Under the pieces are notes generated by a model. The model was given only the letters and a program-made list of their open reading frames with translations, was not told where the DNA came from and did not search any database. A stretch of DNA of 64,000 bases from Erodium maritimum (taxonomy: Eukaryota; Streptophyta; Magnoliopsida; Geraniales; Geraniaceae): NCBI GenBank assembly GCA_963921825.1, contig OY997588.1, positions 156,303,618 to 156,367,617 on the forward strand. The letters run 5' to 3'. This document shows, piece after piece, positions 4,580 through 26,304 of this stretch. The translations under genes and the position numbers were made by a program. The stretch's first letter is position 1, and the number at the start of each line of letters is the position of its first letter.

Positions 4580-4797
4580 AGTTTAGTATCCTCCGATATC
4601 TTAAATCCATCATAGGGCAAAACTTCCTATTTACCCCAAATCTTCAGAAATTTTCTCGGACTCTACTGCATCACTTGCTAGATTCAAAGCATCGATGGGT
4701 AGTATAATTACATTCATCATGAGGAAGAAGCCTGACAAAAAAGAGTATGTTATACATGAAAGATGAAATGCATGTTGCATGGAAAAGATAAATCAAA
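4580..4797. repeat. Dispersed module R1, copy 3
   Basis: This copy of module R1 has the blocks CCTCCGATATCT, ATCATGAGGAAGAAG and ATGAAAGATGAAATGCAT in order. Parts of its left half are deleted. Confidence 0.7.
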
Positions 4798-4994: not shown

Positions 4995-5688
4995 GGACCT
5001 ACTACAGCTCATTCAAGTGAGCTGGGTATTGTCAACCAGCCAGCCCATGTTGTTTCTCCATCTGATCAAGCTGGTGAGAATCAGTGGATCAGATGTTGCA
5101 GTCTGTATTTCCTGAGGATGTATCGGGGGGATTGAAACACAGTTCAACAAGGTAGTCGTTGGAAGGAGGCCCTTCTTAAGAGTCCACAAAATAGTCGTGG
5201 TAGCCCAAGAAAAGGACAGTAAAAAACGCTTGTTCCTCCCACTATTTTGTATCAGACAAGAGCCAGAGCTTCAGCTGATAAAGGAGACACTGGAAGCTTT
5301 ACTGTCAATATTGCTAAGAAAGTCAAGGATGGTAATTGGAGTTAAAGCAAGAGAGTTGGGAAAAGGCTGCTGACCTTGTAGTGTTAAACAACTCTCTAGA
5401 AACTGACGTCCCAAGTGAGGAGGACGTTGAGGATAATGGGAATGAGGTTTATACAGGAAAAGATGTACTCCCTGTTTCGGTTTCTCACCAGTTTAGTCTA
5501 ATCTCGGGTAGACAGTAGACAAGGAGGGCTCTTGTTCTTTTTGTTTTTTTTTTCGATTAGTTTTTGTTTTTTGTTTGCTCTCTGTAGCTGTTTTGGTCTG
5601 GAAAAAGGACATTTTTAAGGATCGTTTTCTTACTATGTTTTACTATTCTTGTAAAACATTTGCGTAATAAATTTTCACTTATCAAAAA
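4995..5688 (+). mobile_element. LINE-like remnant ending in A-tail
   Basis: This non-coding stretch has broken reading frames. It ends in AATAAATTTTCACTTATCAAAAAAA, closely like the 3' end of the LINE remnant that ends near 18250. I infer a decayed non-LTR element in + orientation. The left boundary is uncertain. Confidence 0.4.
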
Positions 5689-5699
5689 AACCCTGAAGG

Positions 5700-6349
5700 T
5701 GTAATGTCATATTGAACAAAAATACTTCAACATCTCAATAAACAATTATCATGATAGTCAATTACTCAAAATTAAACTAAAGAAAATGAATCACATTTCA
5801 ACAACTTGAAAACTACAATATTCATATTAAATCACATTGGAGCACGTTTTATTAGAAATTTTATAATATATGCATCATATCATATGCATTAACGCATGCA
5901 AGAAAATGACTTCAAACTCATAACATCACGAAATGTCTTTTAAAATGTATAAACAAAAACATAAATTATTATTTTTTGTCACATATCCTCAATTTCCCAG
6001 CAAATTACATGGAAATTAAGCCGAAATCGCCTTCATTTTAACATATAAAAAACAAGTTTAAGCAACTCAATTAGCTCAGAGTCGTCTCTATGTATAGGGT
6101 AAACTACAAATACATACCCTGAAGCTGGAACGTTTAACCGATGATTACCATGAAGTTACAACTTGTAACTAGAAACCCTTTCTGTCAGCTAAAATGACGA
6201 AAATACCCTCAATGATTTTTACAAATACCCCTTTCATCACACATCAAATCTCAATCTAATCAAAGATAAAACTGCTTAGCCATTATAAGAAACAAAATTA
6301 TCATCGTATTACTTGCTACTACGTTTTGTGCTGAGACTTGAGAGTTGAT
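5700..6349. other. Upstream region of peptide gene copy 1
   Basis: This is AT-rich sequence without a gene. A clear TATA box at the spacing used by copies 2-4 (108-121 bp before ATG) is not visible here. The leader is also the most diverged of the four. Confidence 0.4.
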
Positions 6350-6433
6350 ATGGCGAGGAGCGGAGCACAGCCTTCTCGTGGCGGCGTGTTGAAGCGGATT
6401 TTGTGTTGTTTTTGTCCCCGAGCTGACGATTGA
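6350..6433 (+). CDS. Cys-containing basic microprotein, family copy 1 (27 aa)
   Basis: A single short exon encodes 27 residues: MARSGAQPS, then RGGVLKRILCCFCP, then RADD and stop. Three related genes lie at 14053, 18702 and 20724. This is the most diverged N-terminus, since the Pro run of the others (GPPPPR) is GAQPSR here, yet the RGGVLKRILCCFCP core is identical to copies 2 and 3. Synonymous changes relative to the other copies (CGT for CGC, TTG for CTG, CGG for CGT, ATT for ATC, TGT for TGC) with an unchanged protein indicate selection on the peptide. There is no signal peptide and no long hydrophobic segment; the core is basic then Cys/Phe/Leu-rich, which could suit membrane association through S-acylation (inference). 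The ATG is followed by G at +4. The function is unknown and I recognise no named family. Confidence 0.75.
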   Translation: MARSGAQPSRGGVLKRILCCFCPRADD

Positions 6434-6447
6434 CTTCTGAGCTATTC

Positions 6448-6470
6448 GCCCGACATTTATATGGTCGGGC
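6448..6470 (+). terminator. Perfect 7-bp hairpin after peptide gene 1
   Basis: GCCCGAC and GTCGGGC form a perfect inverted repeat around a 9-base AT-rich loop, 14 bases after the stop codon of copy 1. It could be a 3' UTR stem. Equivalent hairpins are not evident after the other copies, so a function is uncertain. Confidence 0.35.
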
Positions 6471-7146
6471 CATTTTCGTAGTCACATGAATGGCGTATAT
6501 GTTTTTGCAAATAATTCATATCCATTTGTATTTACCGATTTTTTTCATTTTCGTAGTGCAGCGAAAGTGTGATGATTCATTTTGATAATAAAATTACGAA
6601 ATAACTTAGATTGAATCTTAGTGTCTTAGATTATTTAGATGATTAACGTTAAAAACTGATATATTTTTATATTACATGCATTTGGAAACCCATTGTACCC
6701 AAGATTACTTCCATTTAACTATCTCAAACTGATATGTATAGGTCTTGTTCCGAACATCAATTTTATGCAAACAGATTTTGATCGGGTCTAAAGACTCTCA
6801 CCAATCAGCTAGAAACTGAAGCTCTACCTTGTGACGGTTGAAATCTCACTAGTCAATCTGCAGTTGACATCTCTTCTGGTGAAGATGGGCACGCTACTGG
6901 GTCAATGGTTACTCTGGCCGTCGAAAGTGGACGTGGCGCATCCTCCACGGTACTCCACCAATTAACATGATAGCAGACATAAGGAAGGATACTGAGGAGA
7001 CTATCGCTATCGGCATTTTCTACTCCTATTAACGGAGCCTCTAAGCCGGCAAGAGCACAATGGAATCTCTGCCACCACTCGAGATGCGCGTACGTACCCC
7101 TACCGCAGCAACTTGGGTTCTTCGTTAATGAATCTTTCTCGAAAAG

Positions 7147-7368
7147 CAAGTCTTTAGTTTCCTCCGATATCTCAGCCATCGTACATCGAAATTTCTTTCC
7201 CACTCGAATCTTCGGAAACTTGGTTGGACTTAATATGAAGCATAGATAGAGATTTGGTTTAATAGTAGAAAATCATCCCATAGTAGATTTACATTTATCA
7301 TGAGAAAGAAGTGTGACAAAATAGAGTGTATTTTACATGAAGGACGAAATGCATACTCCATGAAAAGC
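7147..7368. repeat. Dispersed module R1, copy 4
   Basis: This is a full-length copy. Its minus strand has the longest open frame of the family (6853-7203), reading through KKFRCTMAEISEETKDLL and then unique sequence to residue 116. That frame is not known to be a gene. Confidence 0.75.
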
Positions 7369-7767
7369 TTCTCTTACTTTTGTAGTGAATATTTTGTTAA
7401 CAAAGATCTCAATATGTTTATGGTCTGATCTTTGTAGATCAATTATTTTCCAATTTTATTTTAGTAGATGTAAGTCTTTTTTTACATATGTAGATTTACG
7501 CTATTTAGAAAGTCTAACAAACATCTTCAAAAAACAGGACCAATTAGTTTCTTAATTAGGCGTAACAAATTTGGCCCATGACCCATTAACATATTGTGAA
7601 TGGTCGGTCCAAACCGCTAAACCAACCGAAAACCGTCAAGTCGGAATTTTTTAAATTTTTCGATTTCGGTTCCGACAGTGGTGCCGGAATTACGAATCCA
7701 CACATATGCAGTGTGGGGGTCAAAGGGGACTCAAGGTCGGTTTAACCGACCATGCCCACCCCTACTA

Positions 7768-7860
7768 TAGAATAAGAGTTTACCTCTTTAGGTGTGTTTG
7801 ACTTTGACCCACTAACTTTTAGAAAAGCAAAGAATTCGAAAGTTACTAATGAATCACCTT
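7768..7860 (+). promoter_or_regulatory. Orphan copy of peptide-gene promoter segment
   Basis: ACTATAGAATAAGAGTTTACC, followed by a GGTGTGTTTGAC-like stretch and GGCCCACTAGC-like sequence (here GACCCACTAAC), matches the region upstream of peptide copy 2 at about 13790-13860. No peptide frame follows. The match ends where a different repeat begins at about 7900. Immediately to the left, ACCGACCATGCCCACCCCTA resembles the end of a hAT-type MITE, which may have broken the locus. Confidence 0.5.
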
Positions 7861-7899
7861 TCTTTGGTGTATTCTCCGTCTTCATTATTATTATTTTCT

Positions 7900-8160
7900 G
7901 ATCAACCCCTATCGTCTCTGAAGCGGTCATTAGCACATCCATCTCTTTGGCTGGATCAGGCTAATCAATTGAGTCTATTTTACTTTATCTGTTTTCTATT
8001 TTGCAGGATTAATGACTCAGAAATTCATGGACTTTTATTGGGAGAGGACCCTGATTCACGTATATCCTCTTATTACTACTGATGGATTCAAGTTCGGTCG
8101 CACTCCTCACAGCGAAAATAATCCTTGAAAATCAGGGATCAAACAACGTTTAAGCACCAC
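7900..8160 (+). repeat. Repeat R3, copy 1 (partner at 52790)
   Basis: Collinear with 52790-53065. Shared landmarks include GGATCAGGCTAATC, TTTTATTGGGAGAGGACC versus TTTTATCGGGAGGGGACC, ATATCCTC, and CGCACTCCTCAC versus CGTACTCCTCAC. The reading frame is broken here. I cannot assign the parent element. Confidence 0.65.
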
Positions 8161-8958
8161 TTTGAGTGGTTCTCCTCAATTTATTAGCTTAAATTTCTTT
8201 AAGCTTCCTCAAAAAGAGAAACTAATTCTCAAATTTGTTAAAAGAATTGTGAACAACGTTCTTACTTCGTCCTATGTATGTTCTTCAATGGTCCAAAGAT
8301 CTTTTTTTTGTGATGCACTTCCTTCATATTATCTCTTAGATAATTAATAAAATCTATCGCTTATTTTTAAATAAAAAAAAACTAATTAAAGAATAAAAAA
8401 TTCTAACAAGTTCAGATGTTAGAGATAACGAGCAATATAGGAGTGAAAGAGTCGGGCGGGCTAATCAAAATCTTGGGTTCATTTCATATAACTACCTCTA
8501 TGAATTGTCCTCAAACACATGTAAACTCATATCTTGGATCACTCGTTTATTACCAAGCATTACACGTCACCAAAAACAAGTTTCCCTTCTATACTTCTAC
8601 TTGGAAAGACGAAGATTGTGACATGTTGTACCGACTCTCAACTGTCAACTTAGAGTTAGAGCTCTATTCGTGAGGGAGGATCAAGATTTTGATCAACTAA
8701 AGGCAAAGCTCTACTCGGCGACAAAGGTGGGCACGTCAATGAGCCGGTGACTAACCATTTTTGCCTAAAAAAAGGATGTTGTTCTCCCTATGTACGGTTG
8801 ATAGTCGAGACAAACAAAGACATTGAGGGGACAATCGGTAGCCTTTTCTCTTCCGAGCCTCTATCTCTGCATGAACTTTCAAGAATCTCGGTCATCTCAC
8901 CAAAATGATCTCCGCCCTACCATCCCCTATATCTAGGTTCTTGGCCAACGAACGAGCA
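8161..8958. other. Repeat-derived intergenic, no gene seen
   Basis: Short open frames here have no recognisable domain. The segment 8620-8760 shares scattered blocks (ACTCTCAACTGTCAACT, GGGCACG) with sequence just before the R1 copies at 1160 and 7147, so the repeated unit probably extends leftwards of R1. Confidence 0.4.
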
Positions 8959-9185
8959 CGTTTTTAGTTTCCACCAATATCTCAATCATCATACAACGAA
9001 TTTTCTTTACAACTCCAATCTTCAGATATTTGAGTGGATTCGATTCAAAGCATAGATGCAAAATTGGTTTAATACTAGAAAATCATCTCATAGCAGATTT
9101 ACATTTATCATGAGAAAGAAACATAACAAAGGAAAGTATATTTTACATGAAAGATGAAATGCATACTCCATGGAAAGATAATCAA
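8959..9185. repeat. Dispersed module R1, copy 5
   Basis: This full-length copy continues at 9236-9560 into a second module, R2 (GCGCTTTTGTCGACAT, GGCATCGAGCAGAG, TCTTGACACATGGC). R2 is repeated after copy 6. Confidence 0.75.
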
Positions 9186-9235
9186 CATGATGAAATAGTG
9201 TTCGATAGCTCATTCACTAATCCTTGTGCATCTAA

Positions 9236-9560
9236 TACCGAGTTGAATTCCGCCCTTTCCTGCGGAGAAAGCGCTTTTGTCGACATTTGGCATCGAGCAG
9301 AGGAAAAAACATCGATGAGGAGAAAGCATCAGTTTTAATGTTGACGTCGATGTAAGGCGACGTTTTTTTCCAGAACAACCACTTCTGTCTTGACACATGG
9401 CTACCACTTTCCTGATGGCGTGACACAGCGCCACCTCTGACATCGGCTTAACACCCAATAGTCATAGCCGACCACAATGTCAGTGACGTTGAAATCGGAG
9501 CCCAACGCCGAAGCTCGCAACCGGCCTCTACCATGAGGATTTCTCAATCACTACGCGACA
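9236..9560. repeat. Module R2, copy 1
   Basis: This segment matches 10074-10740, with an extra insertion of about 330 bp in the latter. Shared blocks are GTCGACATTTGGCATCGAGC, TTTTAATGTTGACGTC, TCTTGACACATGGC, GGCGTGACACA and GTCGAAATCGGAG-like sequence. Part of it recurs at 15960-16062. Confidence 0.65.
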
Positions 9561-9807
9561 TGTGTCTCTGTTGTTAGGGAAAAAAAGACCCAAGATAAAA
9601 TAGTCGATCTATCTAGAGCGTTCATATTGGTCAACCCCCGATTACGATTGTTTCTGTATATTAGTCATTCTCGTATTTTTGGAACCCTATACTATCAAAT
9701 CAAGAGAGGACAACATATACTGGATCCCCGAAGGAGCGCTTTGACGCCAAGTCGTCAGGAGGGCCTCCACCAATTCTAGGTTCTCGGGTAACAAATATTT
9801 CTCGGCG

Positions 9808-10026
9808 AGCAAGATTTTAGTTCCCACCGATATCTTAGTCATCATACAACGATTTTTTTTTCAACTCCAATCTTTTTAGATATTTGCTCAGACTCAACTT
9901 AAAGCTTTGATGCAAATTTGGTTTCATTTTAAAGCAGATTTACAATTATCCTGAGGAAGAAGCGTGACAAAGAAGAGTATATTTTGCATGAAAAATGAAA
10001 TGCATATTTGCATAGAAAGATAATCA
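9808..10026. repeat. Dispersed module R1, copy 6
   Basis: This full-length R1 copy is followed by module R2 at 10074, in the same order as the copy at 8959. That shows the larger R1-R2 unit was duplicated together. Confidence 0.75.
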
Positions 10027-10073
10027 ACATGATAAAATAATGTTTGATAGCTCAATGACTGATCCTCGTACTT

Positions 10074-10740
10074 ATAGCGAGTAGAATGTGGCCCTTTCGG
10101 GCGGAGGAAGCGCTTCTGTCGACATCTGGCATCGAGCAGAGAAGGGTCATTGTGGGGGACAAAAGAGAATTTAGATAAAGTGAGAACGGATCAACTTGAT
10201 GCTCAATTTTCTATCGGATCGGCTCATCCTAAAACTATGAAAAGATTAGTTTCGTGTTTAGGAAAGTGAGACATTTTCAATGAGATATCACGTGCTTTAA
10301 ACGGACAAGAGGTGAATGATCGTTGAGAAAAATACAAGGGTAAAAATATACATTGTTCATGTAAGGGTAAAAATATACATTGTTCATGTAAGTCCCACGT
10401 AAAAAAATTACCAAGCTTTTCATTAATAATACATGCTTCGTTTATCTATTTCTATTGTTTATGGACTAACCCGTATAACAAAAACATTGAAGAAGAGGAA
10501 ACACCGATTTTAATTTTGACGTCATGCAAGGCGACGTTTTTTGGAGTAGCAACTTCTATCTTGACACATGGCGATCACTTGAAACATACGATGGATCACC
10601 CGATGGCGTGACACATTACTGCCTCTGATATCATTCTGGCACACAACGGTGCCGACTCTTGATAGTCGACGACAATGCTAGCGATGTCGAAATCGGAGGC
10701 CTACACCAATGTCCGCAATCAGCCTCTATTATGTCAATTT
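10074..10740. repeat. Module R2, copy 2, interrupted
   Basis: The left part (to about 10146) and right part (from about 10480) match 9236-9560. The middle of about 330 bp has no counterpart there and looks like a later insertion. It contains a 27-bp tandem duplication at 10338-10391 (GGGTAAAAATATACATTGTT is the start of each unit). Confidence 0.6.
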
Positions 10741-10888
10741 CTCAAAATAGAATTAATGAAAGTTTAAGGTGTTGAGGTGACATAAAAAAGATTTAAGATA
10801 CTCTAAACGAATTAATGAAATATTAGATATTAATGTGACACTAAAAAATTCAAAATACTCTAAATAAGATATGAAAATTTTAAGATAC

Positions 10889-12268
10889 TGAGGTGCAGAT
10901 GAGAAATCTATTGAGAACCACTCTTAACATAGGAACCATGAGAATCAATCCTACCCACACACATTTAAGATCCAACATTCACCATGATGCCACATCATCA
11001 GCCCAATTCAACCCTCATCCACGCCAATTTCATCTCTTCTCAAACAAGCAAGGGCATAATTGTAATAACATGGTGTCATGTGGACAATTGTACATTTTTT
11101 TTCCACCAATTCACTAATTTAATATTTCCCGATTCGTTTGAACTCCGATTAACTTCAAACTTGCGTCAATATTTTTATTTTTTCAAGGGCTTTAAATCAA
11201 GATCAGTCATGAATATATTTTGAAGCATGAAAATAAAAATTTATATCAAGGTGATAAAAATAATGTTGAGCGTTGATAAATCTTCACTAATAAATGTTTT
11301 ATATCGGAGTACCAAACCAGTGCTAAATGTTGATAAAAAACATGTAATGAGGTGATAAGGAACAAATAATGAGGTGATAAAAACTATTTTCAATTTTGAT
11401 AATAAGTGTGATACACTAGAGTTTAACGTTGATAAAAAAAAACTTGTGATGAGGTGATAAAAAACACGTAATTCAATGATAAATCTAGTGTTCAGTGTTG
11501 ATAAAACTGGTGTTCATAAAAAGCACGTGATGAGATGATAAAAATCATGATCAGTTTTAGAGAATGGGGTGATAAAATCAGTGTAAAGTGTTGATAAAAA
11601 CAGGGTAAAGTGTTGATAAACACAGAGCAAAGTGTTGATAAAAATTATCCATATATAATTCCATTAAAAACTAGCCCCGAAATAAATTTTTTTCGTGCTT
11701 CAAAAAAACATGTGATGGGGGTGATAAAATACACGTAATTTGAATGATAAACCTAGTGTTTAGTGTTGATAAAACTAGTGTTCATAAAAAGCACGCGATG
11801 AGGTGATAAAATCATGATCAGCTTTGGAAAATGAGGTGATAAAACCAGGGTAAAGTGTTGATAAAACCAATGTAAAAGTGTTGATAAATCCAAAGCAACA
11901 TGTTGATAAAAACTACCCAGATTTTTTTTTACAAAAAAAAACCCCGAAATAATTTTTTTTCGTGCTTCAAAATATATTCATGACTGATCTTGAATGAAAT
12001 CCCTTAAAAAAACAAAACTAATGGCGCAAGTTTGAAGCCAATCGGAGTTCAAACGAAGCGGGAAAAATTAAATTAGTGAATTGGTTAAAAAAAAAATATG
12101 ATAGTTTTACTAAAAAGCCCTTACCACTTACTAAAAAGTGCTGTTTTTTTGCAGTCAACTACTCAATTGCATCTCATCCATCCATTCCTAAAACGAATGC
12201 CTTAGATTGGTTCTCGCGGTTCCTACGTTAAAACATGGTTCTCACCAGATTTCTCCTCCTGAGGTGCA
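10889..12268. mobile_element. Non-autonomous Mutator-like element (TIR-MULE)
   Basis: The element proper is 10898-12259, flanked by the 9-bp direct repeat TGAGGTGCA at 10889-10897 and 12260-12268. Its ends are long inverted repeats: AGAAATCTATTGAGAACC at the left pairs with the complement of GGTTCTCACCAGATTTCT at the right. The pairing continues inward for about 340 bp; for example TTTGAACTCCGATTAACTTC near 11140 is matched by GAAGCCAATCGGAGTTCAAA near 12040. A 9-bp target duplication with long TIRs is diagnostic of Mutator-like elements. No transposase is present. The centre is an array of GTTGATAAAA-type repeats. Confidence 0.85.
11250..11925 (+). repeat. GTTGATAAAA / GGTGATAAAA array in the MULE core
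   Basis: Some two dozen short units ending in GATAAA occur, alternately preceded by GTT and GGT. On top of this there is a duplication of about 260 bp: 11445-11700 matches 11705-11965, sharing TAGTGTT, GTTCATAAAAAGCACG, ATCATGATCAG and CGAAATAAATTTTTTTCGTG-like blocks. Confidence 0.8.
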
Positions 12269-12629
12269 AATATCCTTTAAATAGTTAAAATATATTAGAT
12301 ACCGTAATGTCATGGTGTCTAGGTTACAAAACATGTAGCGGCAAACTCTAATATGTGATAGGAAACTCTAAGACCAACCGTAGTGGGACCGATTTTGTTC
12401 CGAAAATCTTGTTGATTCTATAAAAAGGTGACGAAAAGTGGCATTTTGTTTCTCATTCCGTTTTTCTATCGACCGTCAACGAATATATCAACGTTGGTTT
12501 TGATGGATTTTGCTATCTCTCCTCTTTCTCTTTGTCCTCATAACCCATACTTTCGGAGGAGTAAGCATAACCGTCTATTTATGAACAATATGGACTAAAC
12601 ATACTGAATACACACATCAATTCATAAGC

Positions 12630-12850
12630 ATTGTGTTGATTGACTCGGGTCTTCCAAATTTGTACTTGACTCTCACTTTCAAGTCAAGTTTCACACTACA
12701 CAATTGCTTCTTTGTTTCATACCATGAGACCGAATATATTGTAAAGCACCGAGAAATAAATAATTTCAATGTTTCTCATAAATGAGTCTAAATGTCTAAT
12801 TCACACTTTTCTCTAGCCACTTGTTCAGACTCGATTCACACCTTTCGCCC
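12630..12850 (+). promoter_or_regulatory. Orphan copy of peptide-gene promoter
   Basis: The segment combines blocks found upstream of copy 2 (GACTCGGGTCTTCCAAATTT, CAAGTCAAGTTTCACACTA) with blocks found upstream of copy 3 (TTTGTTTCATACC, GACCGAATAT, GCACCGAGAAAT, AATGAGTC, TTCACACCTTTC). No peptide frame follows, so this looks like the remains of a lost family member. Confidence 0.6.
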
Positions 12851-12939
12851 AACATTATTTATTTATTGTCATTGGTTTATATATAAATATTTTATAAAGT
12901 AATTTATTGATAAGAATTTGTAATTCAAGTTTTCCAAAA

Positions 12940-13660
12940 AAATAATAATCTGATTCTTAGAAAATCGTCCTGAATCGAGCATTGGCATGGTAGCTCAGCC
13001 TCATGACAATCCCACCACGGGAAGATACCAGATACATGTAAGAGCATTCAAATAGAAGAAACCTCGGCTTCCCAACATGGAAGCGTGTGAAGACAATAAA
13101 AGTCTAACTAACCAGATTTTACAACCATAAAGCGCAAAACAGGTAAAAAGAAGAGAGGTCTAATACCAAACGAAAGAGGGTATAATACGCTAATTTTCCG
13201 ACCATGAAGCTCATAACCAAAAAAGAGGTCTTAGTGTACCTAGATTTTCCGACCATAAAGAGCTAGGAAAACAACGATCCAGGCTGCTGCTGCTCCAAGA
13301 AAAATCCTCCTATTATCTCAAAGAGGTATCATATGTCTTTGTTGGCCTACACAATCAGGTGATGTCTGCTGCGCACTCATTAGGTTCTACGAGGCACCTA
13401 CATGGAAGCTGGACGTTGGGGAGGAGAAGTGTCCCTCCCCCATTACGATTAGCTGCAACTGATCGTCCTTCTCCACTAATTACTGAGATCCCTAGTCTAT
13501 TATCGTACCCCTCACCGAATGCAACATGTGTCCCTATAGCTTCAGGCGACAACCAGACAATCGCATATGTACCAGATCGAGCCAACTCTAATTCTCAAAT
13601 GAGAAACCCTTGCACAATAGAACAAATGGCTTGTTTTCCAAAAATAAACTCGTAGAACAT
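12940..13660 (-). mobile_element. Possible LINE remnant with 3' repeats (minus)
   Basis: The segment 13100-13280 has a loosely repeated unit containing GATTTTCCGACCATAAAG (or ATTTTACAACCATAAAG), three times at spacings of about 60-75 bp. This is reminiscent of the repeat-bearing 3' end of the LINE fragment at 2659. Open frames at 13355-13655 on both strands have no domain I recognise. The assignment is weak. Confidence 0.3.
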
Positions 13661-13724
13661 ATCAGATCGAAGATATCAACCTCCTTAAATCATGACGATA
13701 TATATCTCGATTCGTAGGACTTTA

Positions 13725-13940
13725 TTGTTTGACTCGGGTCTTCCAAATTTGTAGGTTATTTTCGCTTTCAAGTCAAGTTTCACACTATAGAATAAGGGTT
13801 TACCTCTTCGGGTGTGCTTGGCCCACTAGCTTTTCGAAAGAATTTAAATGTTTGTCACGAATCAGTGCAATTCACACCTTTCACGTTTCCACACTATGTG
13901 CTACCAATGATTTTTGAAAGTACAATCTTAATATAAATAG
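13725..13940 (+). promoter_or_regulatory. Promoter of peptide gene copy 2
   Basis: A TATA box TATAAATAG lies at 13932-13940, 121 bp before the ATG at 14053. A CCAAT sits at 13904, 28 bp upstream of it. Upstream blocks are shared with the orphan promoters at 7768 and 12630 and with the copy 3 promoter. The leader after TATA contains TTTGTAGAAAGAAAG and CTTTCTAAATTTGTGTTGAG, shared nearly exactly with copy 3. Confidence 0.6.
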
Positions 13941-14052
13941 AAATTCGAGGGCTAACTTGAATTATTATGCACACCTCCACCTTACCATTTGTAGAAAGAA
14001 AGTACAAAATATTGTATAGCTTTCTAAATTTGTGTTGAGGTCGATCCTTGAT

Positions 14053-14124
14053 ATGGCGAAAGACGGACCACCACCTCCTCGCGGCGGTGTGCTAAAGCGT
14101 ATCTTATGTTGCTTCTGTCCCTGA
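14053..14124 (+). CDS. Cys-containing basic microprotein, family copy 2, shortened (23 aa)
   Basis: This copy encodes MAKDGPPPP, then RGGVLKRILCCFCP, then stop. An in-frame TAG 36 nt upstream of the ATG supports the start. The C-terminal tail of the other copies (R-x-D-D) is cut off because the Arg codon CGA is TGA here. The next three codons would give E-D-D followed by the ancestral stop at 14134-14136, so the loss is a recent single transition. Within the core, codons differ from copies 1, 3 and 4 at synonymous positions (CTA for Leu, TTA for Leu, TTC for Phe). The product may still work if the acidic tail is dispensable, or this may be an early pseudogene; the sequence alone cannot decide. 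Confidence 0.65.
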   Translation: MAKDGPPPPRGGVLKRILCCFCP

Positions 14125-14985
14125 GAAGATGATTGAGTTCGGAGACAGATCGTGTAAACCAGTCAAATCAATATTAAGGAAAAAATATAATGAAGTATTT
14201 GTTTTTTTTTTTTGCAATTTGTAACTTTAAATTTTCATCATAATAAAATGTCATGAATTTATGTTTTTGTTACATTACGCATAAATTCGCTTTAGATTTA
14301 TTTTTGATAAGCAATTAATTTATTTCTTTGAAATGAAGAACATTTACAAAGATGGTGCTGATGAACCGAAAGATCAAACTTAGAACGAAAGTACTCATAC
14401 GATACCTCTACCTCACCACACTTTTAAAATAGTATACAGTAAAGACTCAGTGACCCAAATATTACCTTTACGATTCTAAAATCAAAATTAATAATTCAAG
14501 AATAAAAAAATCCAAACTATATAGAGGTGAAAGGGTCCAGATGGGGGTGAATCAATAGAAAGGTTTATGTGAGCACACGATTACTCTTATGGAGTTTCAA
14601 GTCTCACTGATGTACAAAATAGATTGAAACAATTTAATATTTTTCTTTTCATGTAGCTCATATTTTAATGCAATTTTTCAGAATTATCTAAAAATTAATC
14701 ATGTACCCGTCCAATTTAATTTGATTCCATTCTCGGAATCCTCCACAAAAGCATCCTGAAATGGAAAGGTCAAAGGATGAAAATGAGTGAGCTTTTGGAT
14801 ACAAAGATTTTAAGCTGGATATCATCCCTATATATATAAAGAGGGATGATATTTAATACGAACCATTTTTATTGTCTATATTAAGGACTAATTTAAGTCA
14901 TAAGATACACTCAAGATAATGTGGTTAGAACGCGACACGTGACCTTATCTCCATGCGTCTTTGACAGTGTAGCGCATGTAGCGTG
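14125..14985. other. Downstream of peptide gene 2, no gene seen
   Basis: Sequence to about 14210 aligns with the 3' UTR of copies 3 and 4 (GTTCGGAGACAGATCGTGTA) and runs into the start of a decayed foldback MITE (GAAGTATTTG, TTTGCAATTTGTAAC). The rest is AT-rich and featureless. Confidence 0.45.
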
Positions 14986-15215
14986 CATGATACCAGCACT
15001 CTGTATTTATAAGGTACCAGCACCATGTATGTAAGGTACCAAAAGTGTGCTATGCAAGGCATTAGTAACGTTACATGTAAAGTACCAACATTTTGCATAG
15101 TATCAGCACTCTGTATGTGGGCATCAGCACTCTGTATGTAGGTATCAGCATCGTGTTAGGTAAGGTATCAATACTTGGTACGCGCATCAGCAACGGAGTG
15201 CCCACGTGTCAGCAT
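14986..15215 (+). repeat. Degenerate tandem repeat GGTATCAGCACTCTGTATGTA
   Basis: Units of about 20-35 bp containing GTAYCAGCA or GCATCAGCA, usually followed by CTCTGTATGTA, recur about nine times. The flanks at 14849-14925 and 15251-15325 show weak inverted similarity (TTATTGTCTATATTAAGG-type against CACAATAAAAGATAG), so the array may be the core of a decayed transposon. Confidence 0.6.
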
Positions 15216-15690
15216 CTTGCGTGCTCCGATAACGTTAACGCACGTGCATCTTGTGGCTTAAATTGATTCGTAGTTTACACAATAAAAGATAGTTTATATT
15301 TGATACATATTCTATTTATATCAAAACACGTAATTATATTTTCTCCCTCATTTCAGTCTTCTACATGGCTAGTAGTACCTCAAAAACAATCATGGTTTGT
15401 CCGATTTGAGAATCACAGTCATATACTTGAAGAACGTATCTATGCATAATTTTTTCGGACGTCAAAGGTTCAACAACATGCGAGAATGGAAACTCCAAAG
15501 ACTCTGGGTTCATCCAGTTGGTCTAGCATCAATCAGCTGTTTCGGCCATAGATCAATCCTTCAACATTGACGACAAAGTATTGAGTCGGGGTGAGGACTC
15601 TTTCGGATGAAGAGATCATCAACTATAGAAACCGTATGAATTTGTACACCAATTTTTTGAAGATAATCTTGGTTTCTGGATCTTTCTCGA

Positions 15691-15916
15691 CAAGCAAGTC
15701 TTTAGTTTCCTCCAATAACTTAGTCATTGTACATCCGAAATTTCTTTTCAAATCCAATCTACCAAATTTGGTCGGACTAAAATCATTGACGGAGATATGG
15801 TTTAATACTATAAAATCATCACATGGTAGATTACATTTATCATAAGAATAAGCTTGTCGAAAAGAGAGAGTATATTTTACATGAAAGATGAAATGCATAC
15901 TTGCATTGAAATATAA
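15691..15916. repeat. Dispersed module R1, copy 7
   Basis: This is a full-length copy followed by part of module R2 (to 16062). The minus strand reads KRNFGCTMTKLLEETKDLL, paralleling copy 4. Confidence 0.75.
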
Positions 15917-16497
15917 TCAACATGATAAAATGGTGTCTAATGTCTCACTGACTATGATATTGGGGGCGTCAAGTCGGACGTGTATACCAACGCTCGCAAC
16001 TGACCTCGTTCTCTGGAGATTTCAAAATCACGACGCTACACGTGTTCCCGTTCTTAGAAGAAAAAAATGACCTATCGTCTGCTCACAATGATAAAGTTAC
16101 TCTTTGAAACACCTCTTATCGGTTAATTATGTCAATTACGTAAATATATATTTAATTAATTAAATTTGACTAATGCTAAGATTATACATAAACCAATTAA
16201 ATAAAAACATCATTTCATTGCCATAGCTAATGAACACATTTACTATCATTATGATTAATCTCATTGACTTATAAATTAATTTATTAATTTATAGATGTAT
16301 TTATTGCAATGGCCCATGAACTTAAGTGAAGTCCAGCGATGCAGGTCTTTAAGTCCAGTCAAGTCAACCGTCAATTTTCTATATAAATAATCGCATAGTA
16401 AGAACCAGTTGACCGATTTTGAAACCGATGTTTGACTGTCTATTTACACAATAGATGGTACAAAAATTTACGGAAGACAACTACAAAATAAAAAATA

Positions 16498-16962
16498 AGG
16501 ATAATTCCATTTCAACCTAAATCTTTCATATTTCATTTAGAATACCATAAAAAAAATTTGTGTTACCCCAATTGCCTAAACTTTTATTAATTCATTTAGA
16601 GTACCCTAAATCTTTTTTGTGTCACATTAGTACCCTAAACTTTCATTAATTCTATTTTAGTACCCACCGTTAACTTTACATATGATTTTTCATCCAAAAC
16701 AGGTAAAATGACCATACTACCCCTCACCAACAACTAAAATTATGGTAAAGTTAACGGTGGGTACTAAAATGAAATTAATGAAAGTTTAAGGTACTAAAAT
16801 GGAATTAATAAAAGTTTAGGGTACTGAGGTGACACAAAAAAGGTTTAGGGTACTCTAATTGAAAATGAAAGATTTAGAATACTGAGATGACACAAAAAAG
16901 ATTTAGGGTACTCCAATTGGAAAATGAAACTTTTAGGGTACTGATCCGGAATTTTCCCTTAA
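16498..16962. mobile_element. Foldback MITE, ATTTCATTTAGRGTACCCTAAA type
   Basis: The two halves are inverted copies: blocks such as TTTAGAGTACCCTAAATC and GTACCCACCGTTAACTTTAC on the left return as their complements on the right (GTAAAGTTAACGGTGGGTAC, GATTTAGGGTACT). The ends are AGGATAATTCC and GGAATTTTCCCTT. Part of the same family precedes the MULE at about 10750-10890. Confidence 0.75.
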
Positions 16963-16979
16963 AAATAAATTAAGAGATA

Positions 16980-18250
16980 TTTAAAAAAAAATTGAGGAGG
17001 ACACGTGCCCCTTAGGCCCCATGTAGCTCCGCTAAACATATTCAATACATACATCAATAATCATTTAAGTCAACTTTTACACTGAAGGAGAAACTATAAA
17101 GGAGATCTTTTTGTGTGAAGTAGTTCAGTTGTCAATTCGTTGTTTGGGTCTTCAATTGGAATCAGATCCTCGTCATGCTAAAATTTGGGATTCAAGCTTC
17201 AAATCTTTTTTGGCTATTTGGAAGACTAAATTGTTGAATATGGCTAGTAGCCTGGTATTGATTAACTCTACGCTCTCAGCTCTTCCGATATTTTCTATGA
17301 CCTTTTTCTAAAACTCCTAAAGCGGTGATCTTGGAGTTGGAATCTTGGCGGGGTCGCTTTCTCCAGTTTTGAAGCGTAGCTCGTCGAGTATTAAACATAG
17401 TTGCTTGGGGATCAGTTTGTAGGCCTCGTTCTCTGGTGGTTTAGGCATAAGGCGTACGGAACAAGTTAATGACAGTCTCCTTGCCAAATGGATAGAGATG
17501 CTCAAATCCTTCTCCAATTGTTGAGCTTGGTTCCTATTCCGGTTGGGGAGAGTGATTCTCTATTATGGTCTAAGGCGTTTCATTTTAAGTACATCATTGT
17601 CTATTCTCTTCTGGAAGACACCGACCCTCCTCTTCCTCTTCCTTTGTTAGGCTTTCTGTGGATTAAAGGATGGCCTCCAAAGTAAGCTATGTTGGTCTGG
17701 TTGATAGTGAATTAAACAATTTCGTCCATAGTTTTTCTGGAAAGAAGGGGATGTCATATCTCTTTGTCAGAAATGCTCTGCAAATCATGCAAGTCTATTT
17801 TTGAAGACACATATCATATTTTTTTGCACTGTAGTTTTTTTTCGAGCTTCTGATCTCAGATTTATCGTTGGTGCGGTGTTATGTGTATTCACTCGTTTTC
17901 TTTTGCTTCGGTTTTGCTCAGTTAGGAAGGTTTATGGCCTCGAATGTGGTGGTAGAATTGGCTTCGTGTTGCATACTTGTCCTGTTGGGTCTTGTGGTTG
18001 ATCAGAGTAGGGCTCTGCTTCGTGGATCGACAAAGTTGTCCGACAGTTTGTTTGGAATGATGGCTCCATGTTTTCTGAGCTTACAAGCTCATTTTATCTT
18101 GTTTTGTTGTTTCTTGTGATGCAAGCAAGTTTTATCTTAAATTTCTTGTTTTTGTTTTCTTCAAAATCGGCTTCTCTAGCTTCGTATTTTGCTTTTCATT
18201 GTATCTTTCTTTAGTATAATGAAATTTTCCCTTCGTTTATCAGAAAAAAT
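16980..18250 (+). mobile_element. LINE remnant: reverse transcriptase C-terminus to 3' end
   Basis: Frame pieces from 17111 read LGLQLESDPRHAKIWDS, then FLAIWKTKLLNMAS and LVLINSTLSALPIF. This matches the plant LINE pattern of LGLPLG, W-K-x-K-x-LS and L-I-KS-L-SSLP at the C-terminal side of reverse transcriptase. Further fragments near 17780-17830 (LQIMQ, THIIFFCT) resemble the zinc-binding segment with the H-IFLHC motif. Many stops and frameshifts are present. The 3' end is TTTTCCCTTCGTTTATCAGA plus A-rich. The first about 50 bp (GGCCCCATGTAGCTCCGC) look like the end of a hAT-type MITE instead. Confidence 0.65.
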
Positions 18251-18348
18251 CGACCAACTGACGTCGACCTCTACAACATCCTACCGTTGGATCGACGTTC
18301 AGCTTTAGTCAAACACACCCTACAGGATCGACCCTCCGCATCAGATTT

Positions 18349-18602
18349 TGTTAGAGTTTACCTCTTTGTGTGTGATTGACTCATTTAGTCATTTGCTTCT
18401 TAGTTTCATACCCATATCTGACCGAATATTATATGGCAAGGCACCGAGAAATGAATTTTTCTCACAAATGAGTCCTATTCACACCTTTCTCGAGCCACGT
18501 GTCGAGACTCCATTCATTCAATGGTGGGGTCTAAAGACTTCTCGTATCGTATCCACACTACGTGGAACCAATGACTTCAAAGTGCAATTCTTCTATAAAT
18601 AG
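18349..18602 (+). promoter_or_regulatory. Promoter of peptide gene copy 3
   Basis: A TATA box TATAAATAG lies at 18594-18602, 108 bp before the ATG. CCAAT is at 18568, and a perfect G-box CACGTG at 18496-18501 sits in GCCACGTGTCG, the kind of site bound by bZIP and bHLH factors and used in ABA and light responses. The block order matches the fused blocks of the copy 2 promoter and the orphan at 12630. Copy 2 has lost the G-box. Confidence 0.6.
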
Positions 18603-18701
18603 AATTCGATGTCGAGCTTCAATCCATAGTTACCATTTGTAGAAAGAAGAGCACACCACATTGTATAACTTTCTAAATTTTTGTTGAGGTTGATACTTGA
18701 T

Positions 18702-18788
18702 ATGGCCAGAGACGGACCTCCACCGCCTCCTCGCGGCGGCGTTCTGAAGCGTATCTTGTGTTGCTTTTGTCCCCGAACTGACGATTGA
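18702..18788 (+). CDS. Cys-containing basic microprotein, family copy 3 (28 aa)
   Basis: This copy encodes MARDGPPPPP, then RGGVLKRILCCFCP, then RTDD and stop. An in-frame TAA lies 36 nt upstream of the ATG, so translation cannot start earlier without splicing. It has one more Pro than copies 2 and 4, an in-frame 3-nt indel as expected for a protein-coding repeat. It has the most complete control region of the four (G-box, CCAAT, TATA, conserved leader) and probably represents the intact family type. The peptide is too short for a fold of its own. The CCFC cluster could bind metal or be S-acylated, and the Pro-rich N-terminus could bind a partner; both are inferences. I know no named family with this sequence. 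Confidence 0.8.
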   Translation: MARDGPPPPPRGGVLKRILCCFCPRTDD

Positions 18789-18839
18789 GCTCGGGGATAG
18801 ATTGTATAATTGATCGTCAATAATGGGATAAAAGATAGC

Positions 18840-19160
18840 ATGAGGTATTTAATTTTTTGTATTTGGTGAACTTGTCTTTTTGTCGCGCTTTACGTCAATT
18901 TATTTCAAAATGATGATTTTATCCCTAAAAATTTTAATTTTAAAAATAAAAAACTAAAGTATAAAATATATAACTTTCATATTTTTTTTTTAAATGAGAG
19001 ATGAAAATTGGATTTTTATTTTTTACTTATCGTTTAAAAAAAATTCAATTACATTAAAAAAATACAAGTTTATGATATGTTTCTACAATTATAAAAAATG
19101 AGAGCTACAAATTGCAAAAGATTAGTACCTCGAGATATCTTTTAACAATTATCCCTAAAA
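18840..19160. mobile_element. Decayed foldback MITE after peptide gene 3
   Basis: The left side has GAGGTATTTAATTTTTTG and ACGTCAATTTATTTCAAAATG. The right side has CTACAAATTGCAAAAGA and TTAGTACCTCGAGATATC. These are the ends and core of the [17 protein letters not shown] family seen in the introns of the 14-3-3 and COX6B genes. A matching element follows copy 4. Confidence 0.55.
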
Positions 19161-20640
19161 TTGATATGCTGATTCTTAATTAGTACTTTTTTTTGTTTAT
19201 GCATTTCATTAGTAGTATGCTAGTCTCTAATTAGTACCTCTTTTCATTTATGTATTTTACGAGTCTTTTGTTATTGAAGTGTACCGTGAAGCCATGATAT
19301 GTTCATTGGCTTATGATTCAATAATAAAAGAACGATGTTTGTATCATTTTTATTTCAAAGTGTTTTATTGTTATCGGATTTGATGAACGTTGATTGTTGA
19401 TCTTATTCGTAACAACAATATATATTAGCTGATTCCTTGTCGTTGTAGTGTAATGTGGAAGTTTGATTGTTCATCAGATTTATATCTCATTTCGATTCGA
19501 CAATAAAATTGTTAGACGACTTGATCTAATCTTAAAAAAAATCGGATGAGGTTAATCAGTCACCCTAAAGAAAGAAAAACGGCTAAGTAGAAAGGAAAAA
19601 AACGTTACACTTCCTCATTTTTCAGCTGAATCGTCCTTCACTACGTATATTCTTATACAATTAAGATATTCATCCTTAAAGTTATGCGAGAACTCACCCC
19701 CCCCCCCCCCCCCCCCAAATCCTAGTTGTTGTATGGAGGCTGTCGATGGAGCTCTCTCTTCCTCATTTTTTTCATACTGGGTAGTCATCTTCGCCTGCAC
19801 AATAACTACAACCTTCCCCCCTCGAGCATTGTCGTCGCCGTCCTTGTCATGTCTCTCCACCGTTGTCAGATCTACGCTTCAGCCAAGCGAGCCGTTGGGG
19901 TTATTCTCCTCATCGTCGTTGATCGAGGTAACATAGAGTCGAAAAGACTATAATGAACCTTCTGGGTTATTCACGAACCGACCTCCACAGTTTATCGCTT
20001 TGATTTGTCGAGGCTTGTTTTTGTTAAATTGTTGCCCACCGAACACCCGCACGAGCCGCTTGGAGAAGGTTTTGGAGCGATGCAGTCGGTGGAGTCGAGA
20101 TCCGGGACCTACCCATATTGACCCGGGACCGACGTTGCTTGGCCGCCCCAGGAGGAGCAAGGAAGCAGATCGTTTTTCCTGTTTTAGGTTGGATTCAGTT
20201 TTAGTTTCAATTCCGAATTGCGAGTCTATTTTTAGTTTGGATTACTTTTGTTGTTTTTGTAGGTGTTTTTTTCGTTTACTTGAAATGTCGGTAAGAGAAT
20301 TAATTACGATTAGTCCGAACGATATTCTAAAACTCAATGCTTTTTAACCTTACTATGTATGTTTTATTTTATTTTATAATAATGCACTTCCTTAATTACT
20401 TGTTTCAAAAAAAGATAATCTATCCTTTTATGGCAACATATTCAGGTATCAATAAATGAGGGATCCAACAACGAACTTTCCGACAAACAAAACGGAAGTT
20501 GAGAAGTAGTTGCTTGAAATTCGATTTCGACCGAGCTCTATTTTTATTTCTCTAAACTTGCAATGCGTGTTGTAGACGTGTAGTGGTTTAGGTCAGTGCC
20601 GCCTCTATATAAATCACCAATATTCGGACAATCAACGACA
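19161..20640. other. Downstream of copy 3 and upstream of copy 4
   Basis: The region near 19290-19345 (ATTGGCTTATGATTCAATAA, then TAAAAGAACGATG) matches 21285-21340 after copy 4 and includes an AATAAA poly(A)-type signal. A 20-base C run lies at 19697-19716. The segment 20000-20110 resembles 44985-45115 (GATTTGTCGAGG, CCGAACAC). No further gene is supported. Confidence 0.5.
20606..20614 (+). promoter_or_regulatory. TATA box of peptide gene copy 4
   Basis: TATATAAAT lies 118 bp upstream of the ATG, the same spacing as in copies 2 and 3. The leader contains TTTGTAGAAAGAAAAA and CTTTCTAAATTCGT as in those copies. The sequence upstream of TATA is not shared with the copy 2 and 3 promoters. Confidence 0.55.
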
Positions 20641-20723
20641 AAGCAGCTCAGCTATTTGTAGAAAGAAAAAAACATACAAATATTCTTTACCTTTCTAAAT
20701 TCGTCTCGACGTTGATACTTGGT

Positions 20724-20807
20724 ATGGCCAGGGCCGGACCACCACCACCTCGCGGCGGCGTGCTGAAGCGTATCTTGTGTTGCTTTTTTCCGAGGGCTGA
20801 CGACTAA
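20724..20807 (+). CDS. Cys-containing basic microprotein, family copy 4 (27 aa)
   Basis: This copy encodes MARAGPPPP, then RGGVLKRILCCFFP, then RADD and stop (TAA rather than TGA). The third core Cys is Phe here (TGT to TTT), leaving only the CC pair. Pro and Arg are encoded CCG AGG where the other copies have CCC CGA. Preserving both residues despite changes in both codons supports purifying selection. No upstream in-frame ATG exists back to the TATA box. The gene is 1.9 kb from copy 3 and shares downstream sequence with it, including a foldback MITE, so the two came from a tandem duplication. Confidence 0.75.
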   Translation: MARAGPPPPRGGVLKRILCCFFPRADD

Positions 20808-20849
20808 GTTCGGGGAAAATCGTGTGATCGGCTGTCTGGGGAAAAAGTA

Positions 20850-21215
20850 TCTCGAGGTATCTGTTTTTACAACTTACGGTCTTTTTTCATAATTGTACAA
20901 AAAAAATATATTTTTCACTCCATTTTGTATAAATTTGTTTTAAAATGATAATTTTATCCTTCAAAATTTAAAATTTAAAAAATAATAAAAGAACAGAAAT
21001 AGCCAAATCTTTATATCTATTTAATTTCTATACAATTAAGAGATATGAAAATTTGATTTTTTTTTTAGTTTTTTTACAGTTTTTTAAAATCTAAATAACA
21101 ATGATAAAATCATCATTTTTATACGAATTATATCCATGTACAAAAGTTCAAAATACTTTTTCCTATGATTATATAAAAAAGATTATAATTTGTAAAAAAT
21201 AAATACCTCGCGATA
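20850..21215. mobile_element. Decayed foldback MITE after peptide gene 4
   Basis: The ends CGAGGTATCTGTTTTTACAA and TTTGTAAAAAATAAATACCT-CGCGATAT are inverted relative to each other. The core TAAATTTGTTTTAAAATGAT matches the MITE after copy 3 at the same distance from the stop codon. Confidence 0.55.
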
Positions 21216-21849
21216 TTTTTCTTTTCTTCACATTTCTGTATTTTATGATGTTTTTTTCTTGTAATGTAACTTGAAGATATGATTTGTTATTGGCTTTTGA
21301 TTGAATAATAAAAGAACGAGATGACATCATTATGATTGTGTCATTCTTAATTAGACGGGTATTGTAAGGCTATCTAGAATGACGTCGAATCGATTAGATC
21401 TGATGGATAGAAAAATTTAAAAAGAGGTGGGCCCAATTCGTCTATAAAAATAAGTCGAAATTATTTTTTATTTCTTTAGACCACGTGGCCTTCGACTCTT
21501 CTCGATGGTCTACAACTCTATCAATTTTCATGGGATCGAATCGACCCAATTCGTGAATTTTGAGCTTTTCTCCCCAGAAAAATACGAATCGACGCCCCTG
21601 TTCAACGCCCAGTAAACGTCAATGTGGTTAGTCTAAAGATAATCCAATTTAACTTATAGGTTATATTTTCCAAATTACCCCGCTCAATCTCGATATTGAC
21701 GGTTGTACCCTCTCTCCCAAAAGTTCAGAAATCAGTCCTCTTCACTCTCTCTCCTCCGAGCATCAGATCTGATCGGATTAGGTCAAGCTCTCTCTCTCTC
21801 TCTAGCTTCTTCCTCCTTCGCTACTCTCTGCTAAGACTGAGAATCGTCC
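21216..21849 (+). promoter_or_regulatory. Upstream region of the 14-3-3 gene
   Basis: This is a 5' flank and leader without other genes. It includes a CT microsatellite at about 21788-21803 in the presumed 5' UTR, common in plant leaders. No unique TATA box was chosen. Confidence 0.4.
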
Positions 21850-24489: not shown

Positions 24490-26304
24490 GGGTACTATTC
24501 TCAGAACCGGTGTTGAACTTGTCTCCGCGATGTGATTTTAATGGGGGGGATTATGTTTGTCACCATTGTTGCTTCTATTCAGAATTTAGGCATTCTTGCC
24601 CCTACTTAATCGGGTCGTGGATGAACTATGTATTTGTTCCTTTTCTGTCTTCCTTATATTCAGTGTATGTGAACCTCCTTTGTTTCTTTGATGATGTTTA
24701 AGCCTTTTTAACATCTGTAGTGGGATTAATGTAGTGATGTTTGTAGTACTTATCATTTGCTTCTTGACTCGAGTTTAGGGGTGTTAAAAAATCCGTTACA
24801 CTCGATCCACACATTATTATAACACTTATTTGCATAAAATCGGATGAATTGTGGATCGGGTTTTATGAATTCATCTCATTGTGGGTGGATGGCGGATTCT
24901 GGGAAAGAAATAGGTGGATCACCCATTCAATTATTTTTCTTAATTTTGTTTTCTTAATTAACCTTCTATTTTTTCATAAGTTTAAAGTATCGGCGGTTAA
25001 GAGATTAAATTTTCATTTCAGTCTGGCTAATTGACCCTTATCTGTAGGCAAGAGACTTGGAAGAAAAAACAATAGCTTTTTGTTTTATTTTTCATATTTT
25101 TCGTATCTGTTGGGTAAAAACGTCGACGGTTAGTTAAATACCTAGTGAAGTTGAAAGCTATTTTTTCTATTATTTCTGCTCCAACAAATTGTTTTCAGCC
25201 TCGTTTCAGCATTGGACTACAATTACTCTAACTCATGAACCTTACATGATAATTTCATTGTAAGCTTTATGGGTCTCTTGACAAGTCCACTACTTCCTCT
25301 CATTTGTATTCTCTTTTGACAAATTCTTCGTAAACCTGATTGTGCATGAAAAATGCGGATATGATAATCATCAATACGCATTCGCTCGAATAGGTAAACA
25401 TCTATCCTCAGACGGATCACCTGTCCTATGGACTCCCCTATTTGAGTGAGTCATTAACATTGCATATCAGTATCACTTTAGTTTTTAGTTTTGAAAGGTT
25501 CAGATGAACATGCTCAATTCAACCGAGTTTTGATGATCATAAATCCATATTAAACCCTACCAACGTGGGATACAGTTTAATAGAGGTTTTAAGGTTTATG
25601 CTGCTAACTGTAACATAAATCTTAAACTTTACTTTCTGAACTTTAAACCTCTACCATATATATATGCTCAAGTGACATTTATGTTATAGGCCTTATCCCT
25701 TTTGTATATCAACTATAATAAGGCTGAACCTTGAATTCAAATAGAGGTCCAAAAGCAAAGACTCAATTTAGCTGACCTATGAGAATGAGTCGATCTTATT
25801 TCAAACAAATCATTTATATCGACACGAACTTCCATTACTAATAGATTGATCTAATTAATCTCCAACACTATCCAACTTACATGTACTTGGGAATTAGTTT
25901 GGTTCCTAGAAATGGGCCGGGCCCTTAATAAGTTAAATGGGCCGGTCCCAGTACTTAAATCATGGTTGGTGGACTTTAATTGACGTATTTAAAGTTCTAA
26001 AAATTGTTTGACGTTAGTCGGACGGTTAAGATTTTTGAGAGTTAATCGAAGACTAAATGAGGTTTAATCAAAGATAAGTTGAATCGAATCGCTCAACAAA
26101 ACAATGAGGCTTAGGCGGACTCTTAAACGGAGATTAATCGGGATTTTTAGAACACTTTGGTATGTAATTTTGGCCTTTTGGGAGCTAACGAGTACTACGA
26201 AAGAGAAAGCCAACGGAAGTTGAATCTCAACCTTCTCTTCCCCAAAATTTCCCGCCAGAATTTCACAACCTCATCGAGCTCGAATCAGAGATCCAGAGCG
26301 AGAA
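24490..26304. other. Intergenic between the 14-3-3 gene and DPB2
   Basis: This contains the 14-3-3 3' UTR and the DPB2 upstream region. No additional gene or complete element is supported. Confidence 0.5.

Follow-up and report, generated by a model that had tools for sequence, protein, structure and literature searches.

A tandem cluster of genes for ultra-small microproteins in the plant Erodium maritimum

Microprotein genes clustered on contig C1

We analyzed a 64,000-nucleotide stretch of Erodium maritimum DNA (GenBank assembly GCA_963921825.1, contig OY997588.1, forward-strand positions 156,303,618 to 156,367,617), hereafter the window, which lies on the contig called C1 below and contains a cluster of very short genes for a family of microproteins. 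Four + strand open reading frames (ORFs) in the window share the core RGGVLKRILCCF(C/F)P, and translation places them at 6350, 14053, 18702 and 20724, the positions and strand named in an original prediction made from the DNA letters alone. Copy 1 (c1, 6350..6433, + strand) consists of 27 codons and a TGA stop and encodes MARSGAQPSRGGVLKRILCCFCPRADD; copy 2 (c2, 14053..14124, + strand) has 23 codons and TGA and encodes MAKDGPPPPRGGVLKRILCCFCP; copy 3 (c3, 18702..18788, + strand) has 28 codons, including one additional Pro codon, and TGA and encodes MARDGPPPPPRGGVLKRILCCFCPRTDD; and copy 4 (c4, 20724..20807, + strand) has 27 codons and TAA and encodes MARAGPPPPRGGVLKRILCCFFPRADD. Each copy is also recovered as a whole-genome protein match. 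A degenerate DNA pattern for GVLKRILCCF, allowing up to 2 mismatches, matches the window exactly four times, at c1–c4, and gave 0 matches in 100 dinucleotide shuffles. Codon alignment bears out the proposal that copies differ by synonymous and in-frame changes: it shows the alternative Pro-Arg codons that were cited, as well as an in-frame indel of one codon. The R-x-DD tail said to be common to all four copies is present in three, but in c2 the Arg codon of the other copies is replaced by TGA, such that the product ends FCP, the EDD behind the stop is unread, and the whole-genome protein match to c2 spans one internal TGA.

The cluster is larger than the range 6350..20807 first assigned to it: the four copies lie there, but a fifth copy, c0, is located outside and upstream of the window at C1:156299870-156299950 (window coordinate -3747, 3.7 kb upstream) and encodes MTRSGAPPSRGDVLKRILCCFCPRPDD. 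Whole-genome searches covered 763 Mb in 40 contigs. An exact degenerate pattern for KRILCC followed by TT matches the genome five times, each time in forward orientation and inside the C1 cluster, and its reversed control matches once forward and twice in reverse. A tblastn search of the window together with the 60 kb before it, using the five peptides as queries, found c0–c4 and nothing beyond them below E 0.05. Whole-genome protein searches with c3, c4, c0 and c1 return the same five copies among the matches listed, with one addition for c3 described below, and no further close copy among those matches; these searches score best candidates only, and divergent copies may be missed.

The five copies span 24.6 kb on C1 and are accompanied by two stretches that resemble the region upstream of c2 or c3 and have no ORF. 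The first (12636..12838, + strand) aligns at 12636-12704 with 13725-13793 (87%) and at 12701-12838 with 18390-18516 (73%), and is likely the relic of a lost copy; the second (7764..7825, + strand) matches 13784-13839 (79%) and is possibly another. Copies differ in age, because c0 and c1 are 84.5% alike across 207 bases and c2 and c3 are 74.9% alike across 331 bases. The tandem amplification originally proposed for this locus thus stands, with five copies within 24.6 kb and two relic-like repeats.

Selection on the reading frame and limits of the genes

In the c1–c4 codon alignment omega is 0.165, and omega 1 is rejected on all three trees (p 4e-6 to 5e-6); adding c0 gives omega 0.225-0.232 (p 3e-5 to 6e-5, three trees). 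The original prediction had named a dN/dS near 1 among the outcomes that would speak against it, and both the four-copy and the five-copy model reject it. Constraint is concentrated in the 14-codon core, with omega ~0.06 across five copies (p 2e-5), and codons outside the core have omega 0.41-0.44, a departure from 1 that is not significant (p 0.06-0.09). None of 27 completed neutral simulations attains either the test value or the omega of the real data. The coding frame has a mean pN/pS of 0.16, against 1.42 and 1.48 for the two other + frames; the antisense frames give 1.46, 0.30 and 2.1, where the value of 0.30 arises in frame -1 because this frame shares wobble positions, and no antisense start is common to the five copies. 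With some 20 sites per pair, the dS behind these ratios is rough. Variation in the core sits mainly at third codon positions (10 columns, against 1 at first and 2 at second positions), and this third-position excess persists when any single copy is dropped (p 0.001 to 0.03), with the qualification that all of these selection tests draw on one small set of a few dozen codons and so do not count as independent. It is near certain that the cluster is a coding microprotein family, the members of which are presumably transcribed and translated. Selection on frames of fewer than 30 codons is rarely demonstrable, and it is measurable here because old duplicates sit in one genome.

Putative TATA boxes, identified as matches to the TATA consensus, lie on the + strand at 13932..13940 for c2 (TATAAATAG at -121), 18594..18602 for c3 (TATAAATAG at -108) and 20606..20613 for c4 (TATATAAA at -118), in agreement with the spacing of 108–121 bp predicted for copies 2-4. 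Neither c0 nor c1 has a match to this consensus within 250 bases upstream. Position -3 before the ATG is G in all five copies and GC follows the ATG in c1-c4; G at -3 together with GC after the ATG is a fair start context. In-frame upstream stops lie 15 bases before the ATG in c1, 33 in c2, 33 in c3 and 111 in c4, and therefore no longer unspliced protein is common to c1-c4. These stops in c1-c3 and the TATA distances of c2-c4 do not support the possibility, raised in the original prediction, that each ORF is an internal piece of a larger transcript.

In all six pairs of window copies the coding sequences (CDS) are more alike than the 5′ and 3′ flanks, as in the c1-c3 pair, where 70/84 positions are identical in the CDS and 28/81 in the 3′ flank. 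The c2-c3 leader is identical at 80/99 positions and nearly matches the CDS (71/84). The nearest AATAAA lies 189-260 bases past the start of the ATG in c1-c4 and 435 bases past it in c0. The 3′ region of c4 contains a palindromic transposon-like repeat (20843-21220) with related sequence 3′ of c3 (18867-19157), and this repeat recurs at 24195-24284, 35214-35643 and 41396-41559. Directly past the stop, c0 and c1 share GCCCGAC...GTCGGGC (6453-6475 in c1), a possible short hairpin that is absent from c2-c4.

A probable second locus and comparison with known sequences

The whole-genome protein search with c3 adds one weak match at C6:57484771-57484851 (E 0.36). This locus contains an ATG-to-TGA ORF of 30 codons encoding MGKPNCPRPRKGGVLKGILSCFCLGKPKTD, with TATAAATAG at -118 and no AATAAA within 700 bases. 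A reverse search with the C6 peptide returns, among the matches listed, itself, C6:57478549-57478632 (E 2.4e-4), a locus on contig C9 (E 0.29) and c3 (E 0.65), and in comparisons with each of c0–c4, none of 20000 shuffles of its residues reaches the score of the C6 peptide. The C9 match lies in a 64-aa frame without a visible Met and was treated as chance. We consider the C6 ORF a probable homologue, and thus probably a second locus of the family, because its start aligns, its length is similar, it has the core, and the same TATA 9-mer lies at the same distance. The original prediction had counted the lack of any homologue outside this cluster against itself, a concern that the C6 ORF probably answers.

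The neighbouring copy at C6:57478549-57478632, ~6 kb from the C6 ORF, retains GSVLKGILDCTCAGNPKTS. Across 18 codons compared between the two, 6 are identical, 7 synonymous and 5 changed; the neighbouring copy has no ATG in the matching frame and looks broken. Its frame has a further weak match on C6 (E 1.13). We saw no shared C1/C6 neighbourhood, because four window exons (14-3-3, 26301-26500, O-FucT and HD-Zip) have no nucleotide match in the 60 kb around the C6 ORF. Downstream of the ORF, C6:57483607-57483658 is a 52-base, 83% copy of its upstream sequence in which no ORF was seen, recalling the relics on C1.

With a cut-off of E 10, Pfam, which contains models for both DVL/RTFL and CYSTM, returned no family for c0-c4, a longer c4 frame or the C6 copy, and NCBIfam returned none for c0-c4. 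The Protein Data Bank gave 0 matches for c3, and a match of the C6 peptide at E 3.7 was taken as chance. Rfam has 0 matches in 5000-23000 at gathering scores. A protein database that includes plants, as judged from the Eucalyptus, Punica and Syzygium entries found with the window HD-Zip exon, yielded no candidate for the c4 frame (its last 40 residues, and residues 25-64 of the 64-aa frame) under a criterion of three shared 5-residue words, a negative of little weight given how rarely proteins of this length enter annotations. In the open-access literature searched, the core strings LKRILCC and GGVLKRIL and their variants have no match, and CCFCP, ILCCF and KRILCC led to no plant-peptide paper as judged by title. 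The degenerate core pattern has 0 matches in two other collections, one of genome contigs and one of viral contigs. A 48-aa C6 frame compared with genome contigs gave two loci (one Aquidulcibacter metagenome-assembled genome) in which PPRPRKGG lies inside a long bacterial protein, and this was read as unrelated. In line with the original statement that no named plant family is known to have this motif, the family appears unnamed and new within the collections searched, and its general kind, small non-secreted plant peptides, is already known.

The remainder of the window places the cluster among exons and repeats. The first exon of a 14-3-3 protein gene (21850-22335, Pfam E 6.4e-61) lies ~1 kb past c4 and could help to locate the corresponding region in other plants; the window also contains HD-Zip and O-FucT exons, and together these exons show a flowering plant. 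In a tree of the HD-Zip exons the window sits on a long branch and falls in none of the marked groups. A ~240-base repeat unit at 7119-7373 is interleaved with the microprotein genes, with copies at 207-327, 1157-1376, 4700-4785, 8955-9177, 9794-10006 and 15667-15901 and upstream to window coordinate -12380; the window and the 20 kb before it contain 13 such stretches in all. Its minus strand has an ORF start MAEISEETKDLLFEKDSLTK that is partly kept in 3 other copies and for which Pfam gave no family. Further features are a run of ~20 C between c3 and c4 (19697-19716); an element at 11095-12095 in which two tandem units of 267 bases lie between inverted arms of 143 bases (89% complementary); a self-inverted repetitive stretch at 16516-16944 with units of ~29-59 bases (GGTACTAAAATG-like) that is related to 10744-10895; and a dispersed repeat at 7952-8118 and 52847-53019 (73% alike, 173 bases).

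Peptide features and a possible membrane-anchored function

Together, c0–c4 and the C6 ORF encode peptides of 23, 27, 27, 27, 28 and 30 aa in which a Pro-rich start is followed by the core consensus (R/K)-G-(G/D)-V-L-K-(R/G)-I-L-(C/S)-C-F. Alignment of the six peptides reveals invariant residues M1, P9, G12, V14, L15, K16, I18, L19, C21, F22 and P24 (c3 numbering), with the invariance of P24 depending on the alignment of the longer C6 tail. CCFC is present in c0 and in three of the four window copies. Ser replaces C20 in the C6 copy and Phe replaces C23 in c4, which leaves C21 as the one cluster cysteine kept in all six intact copies. The five cluster peptides have a net charge of +2 to +3, the most hydrophobic 9-mer of c3 is VLKRILCCF, and the helical moment computed for GGVLKRILCCFC is 0.49. 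The highest 19-residue mean hydropathy is 0.24, computed for c3 with the other copies alike by eye, and the peptide therefore has no membrane-spanning segment; no signal peptide is seen by inspection, and the hydropathy of c3 argues against one.

These features recall known plant peptides, described here as in excerpts of the cited papers. Like the present peptides, which are probably also non-secreted, the RTFL/DVL peptides of land plants, including ROT4 and DVL1/RTFL18, are small, non-secreted and multi-gene, with a short conserved hydrophobic-basic segment containing cysteines. Arabidopsis RTFL/DVL proteins are 40-144 aa long with a C-terminal RTF domain of ~30 aa (PMC4408365), unlike the peptides described here, which total 23-30 aa. 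ROT4 is non-secreted and is S-acylated near its C-terminus, mainly at C42, a modification needed for plasma-membrane location that strengthens BSK5 binding and is, per its authors, the first reported S-acylation of a small plant peptide (PMC10897394); in the Erodium peptides C21 is a candidate site only. The cysteine-rich, tail-anchored CYSTM and PCM proteins are likewise small, with cysteines near the C-terminus. PCM proteins are 71-82 aa long with a C-terminal transmembrane CYSTM domain and in Arabidopsis are also encoded in tandem clusters (PMC8049917), and pepper Bs5 is a 92-aa protein with a 20-residue transmembrane stretch (PMC10030403), whereas the c3 hydropathy maximum of 0.24 speaks against a C-terminal transmembrane stretch of ~20 residues here. 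Neither an RTF nor a CYSTM domain was found in the six copies (0 Pfam families, E up to 10), and membership of RTFL/DVL and of CYSTM fails on length and domain. In maize, peptides encoded by short ORFs and detected by Ribo-seq and mass spectrometry fall in a size class that annotation often excludes (PMC8244733). The Erodium genes belong to this same often omitted size class, but they occur in several copies, and selection could be measured by comparing these paralogues.

By analogy with ROT4, we tentatively favor a non-secreted microprotein held at the membrane by S-acylation of its invariant cysteine. A basic-hydrophobic stretch ending in cysteines is a usual setting for S-acylation. The family would have grown in tandem through repeated local duplication and loss, which left C1 with five copies and the two likely relics, and C6 would be a probable second, older locus. 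Its product would most likely remain in the cytosol and be acylated at C21; the basic patch and acyl chain would then hold the core on the membrane, where the core and Pro-rich arm would bind a partner protein. Several points weigh against this model. A single invariant cysteine is compatible with other roles, and the acylation idea itself rests on analogy and a general rule. Judged by E-values (0.36; reverse 0.65), the connection to C6 is weak, and the C6 locus is not among the matches listed in searches with c4, c0 and c1. Not every copy need be active, because c2 has lost its tail and c0 and c1 lack a TATA box of the tested form.

An unlikely but serious alternative is an interaction microprotein that works without acylation, in which the core forms a short amphipathic helix docking on a partner and the cysteine is kept for packing. 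The helical moment and the invariance of the entire core, beyond the cysteines alone, would fit such a helix, and RTFL18 binds BSK3/6 through hydrophobic residues (PMC10613268), but docking alone does not explain a cysteine cluster beside a basic-hydrophobic stretch. It is less probable that the family consists of metal-binding or redox cysteine peptides, as proposed for CYSTM or cadmium-tolerance peptides: CCFC recurs in most copies and small cysteine-rich plant proteins are tied to stress tolerance (PMC8049917), but the loss of C20 in the C6 copy and C23 in c4 leaves one invariant cluster cysteine, and the conserved VLK-IL part would go unexplained. A membrane-active or secreted peptide serving in defence or signalling is improbable; the positive charge and amphipathic core suit this role, but no signal peptide is seen, and selection on the core is strongly purifying, not diversifying. 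Tandem amplification, which is common among defence peptides, counts on its side.

Two explanations that deny the ORFs an independent product are weaker still. Both the c2-c3 leader, conserved nearly like the CDS, and the c4 frame, open for 111 bases upstream, could point to part of a longer spliced gene or to an upstream ORF regulating another ORF, but we judge this very improbable given the in-frame stops before c1-c3, the TATA boxes of c2-c4 and the greater likeness of CDS than flanks in every pair. That there is no protein gene, and that a conserved RNA or antisense ORF is responsible, is scarcely credible: the leader is conserved too and frame -1 has a mean pN/pS of 0.30, but shared wobble positions explain this value, the in-frame mean is lower, the other four frames exceed 1.4, no antisense start is common to the five copies, and Rfam has no match in the region.

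The S-acylated microprotein model admits a broader and more doubtful extension, in which Erodium preserves an old, ultra-small, lipid-anchored signalling family with the core GGVLKxIL(C/S)CF, two or more loci in this genome, and members in many flowering plants below annotation limits. Annotation readily misses protein genes with fewer than 30 codons, and the core motif defined here can be used to search other plant genomes. If the S-acylation reading is true, ROT4 would have an even smaller counterpart in this family.

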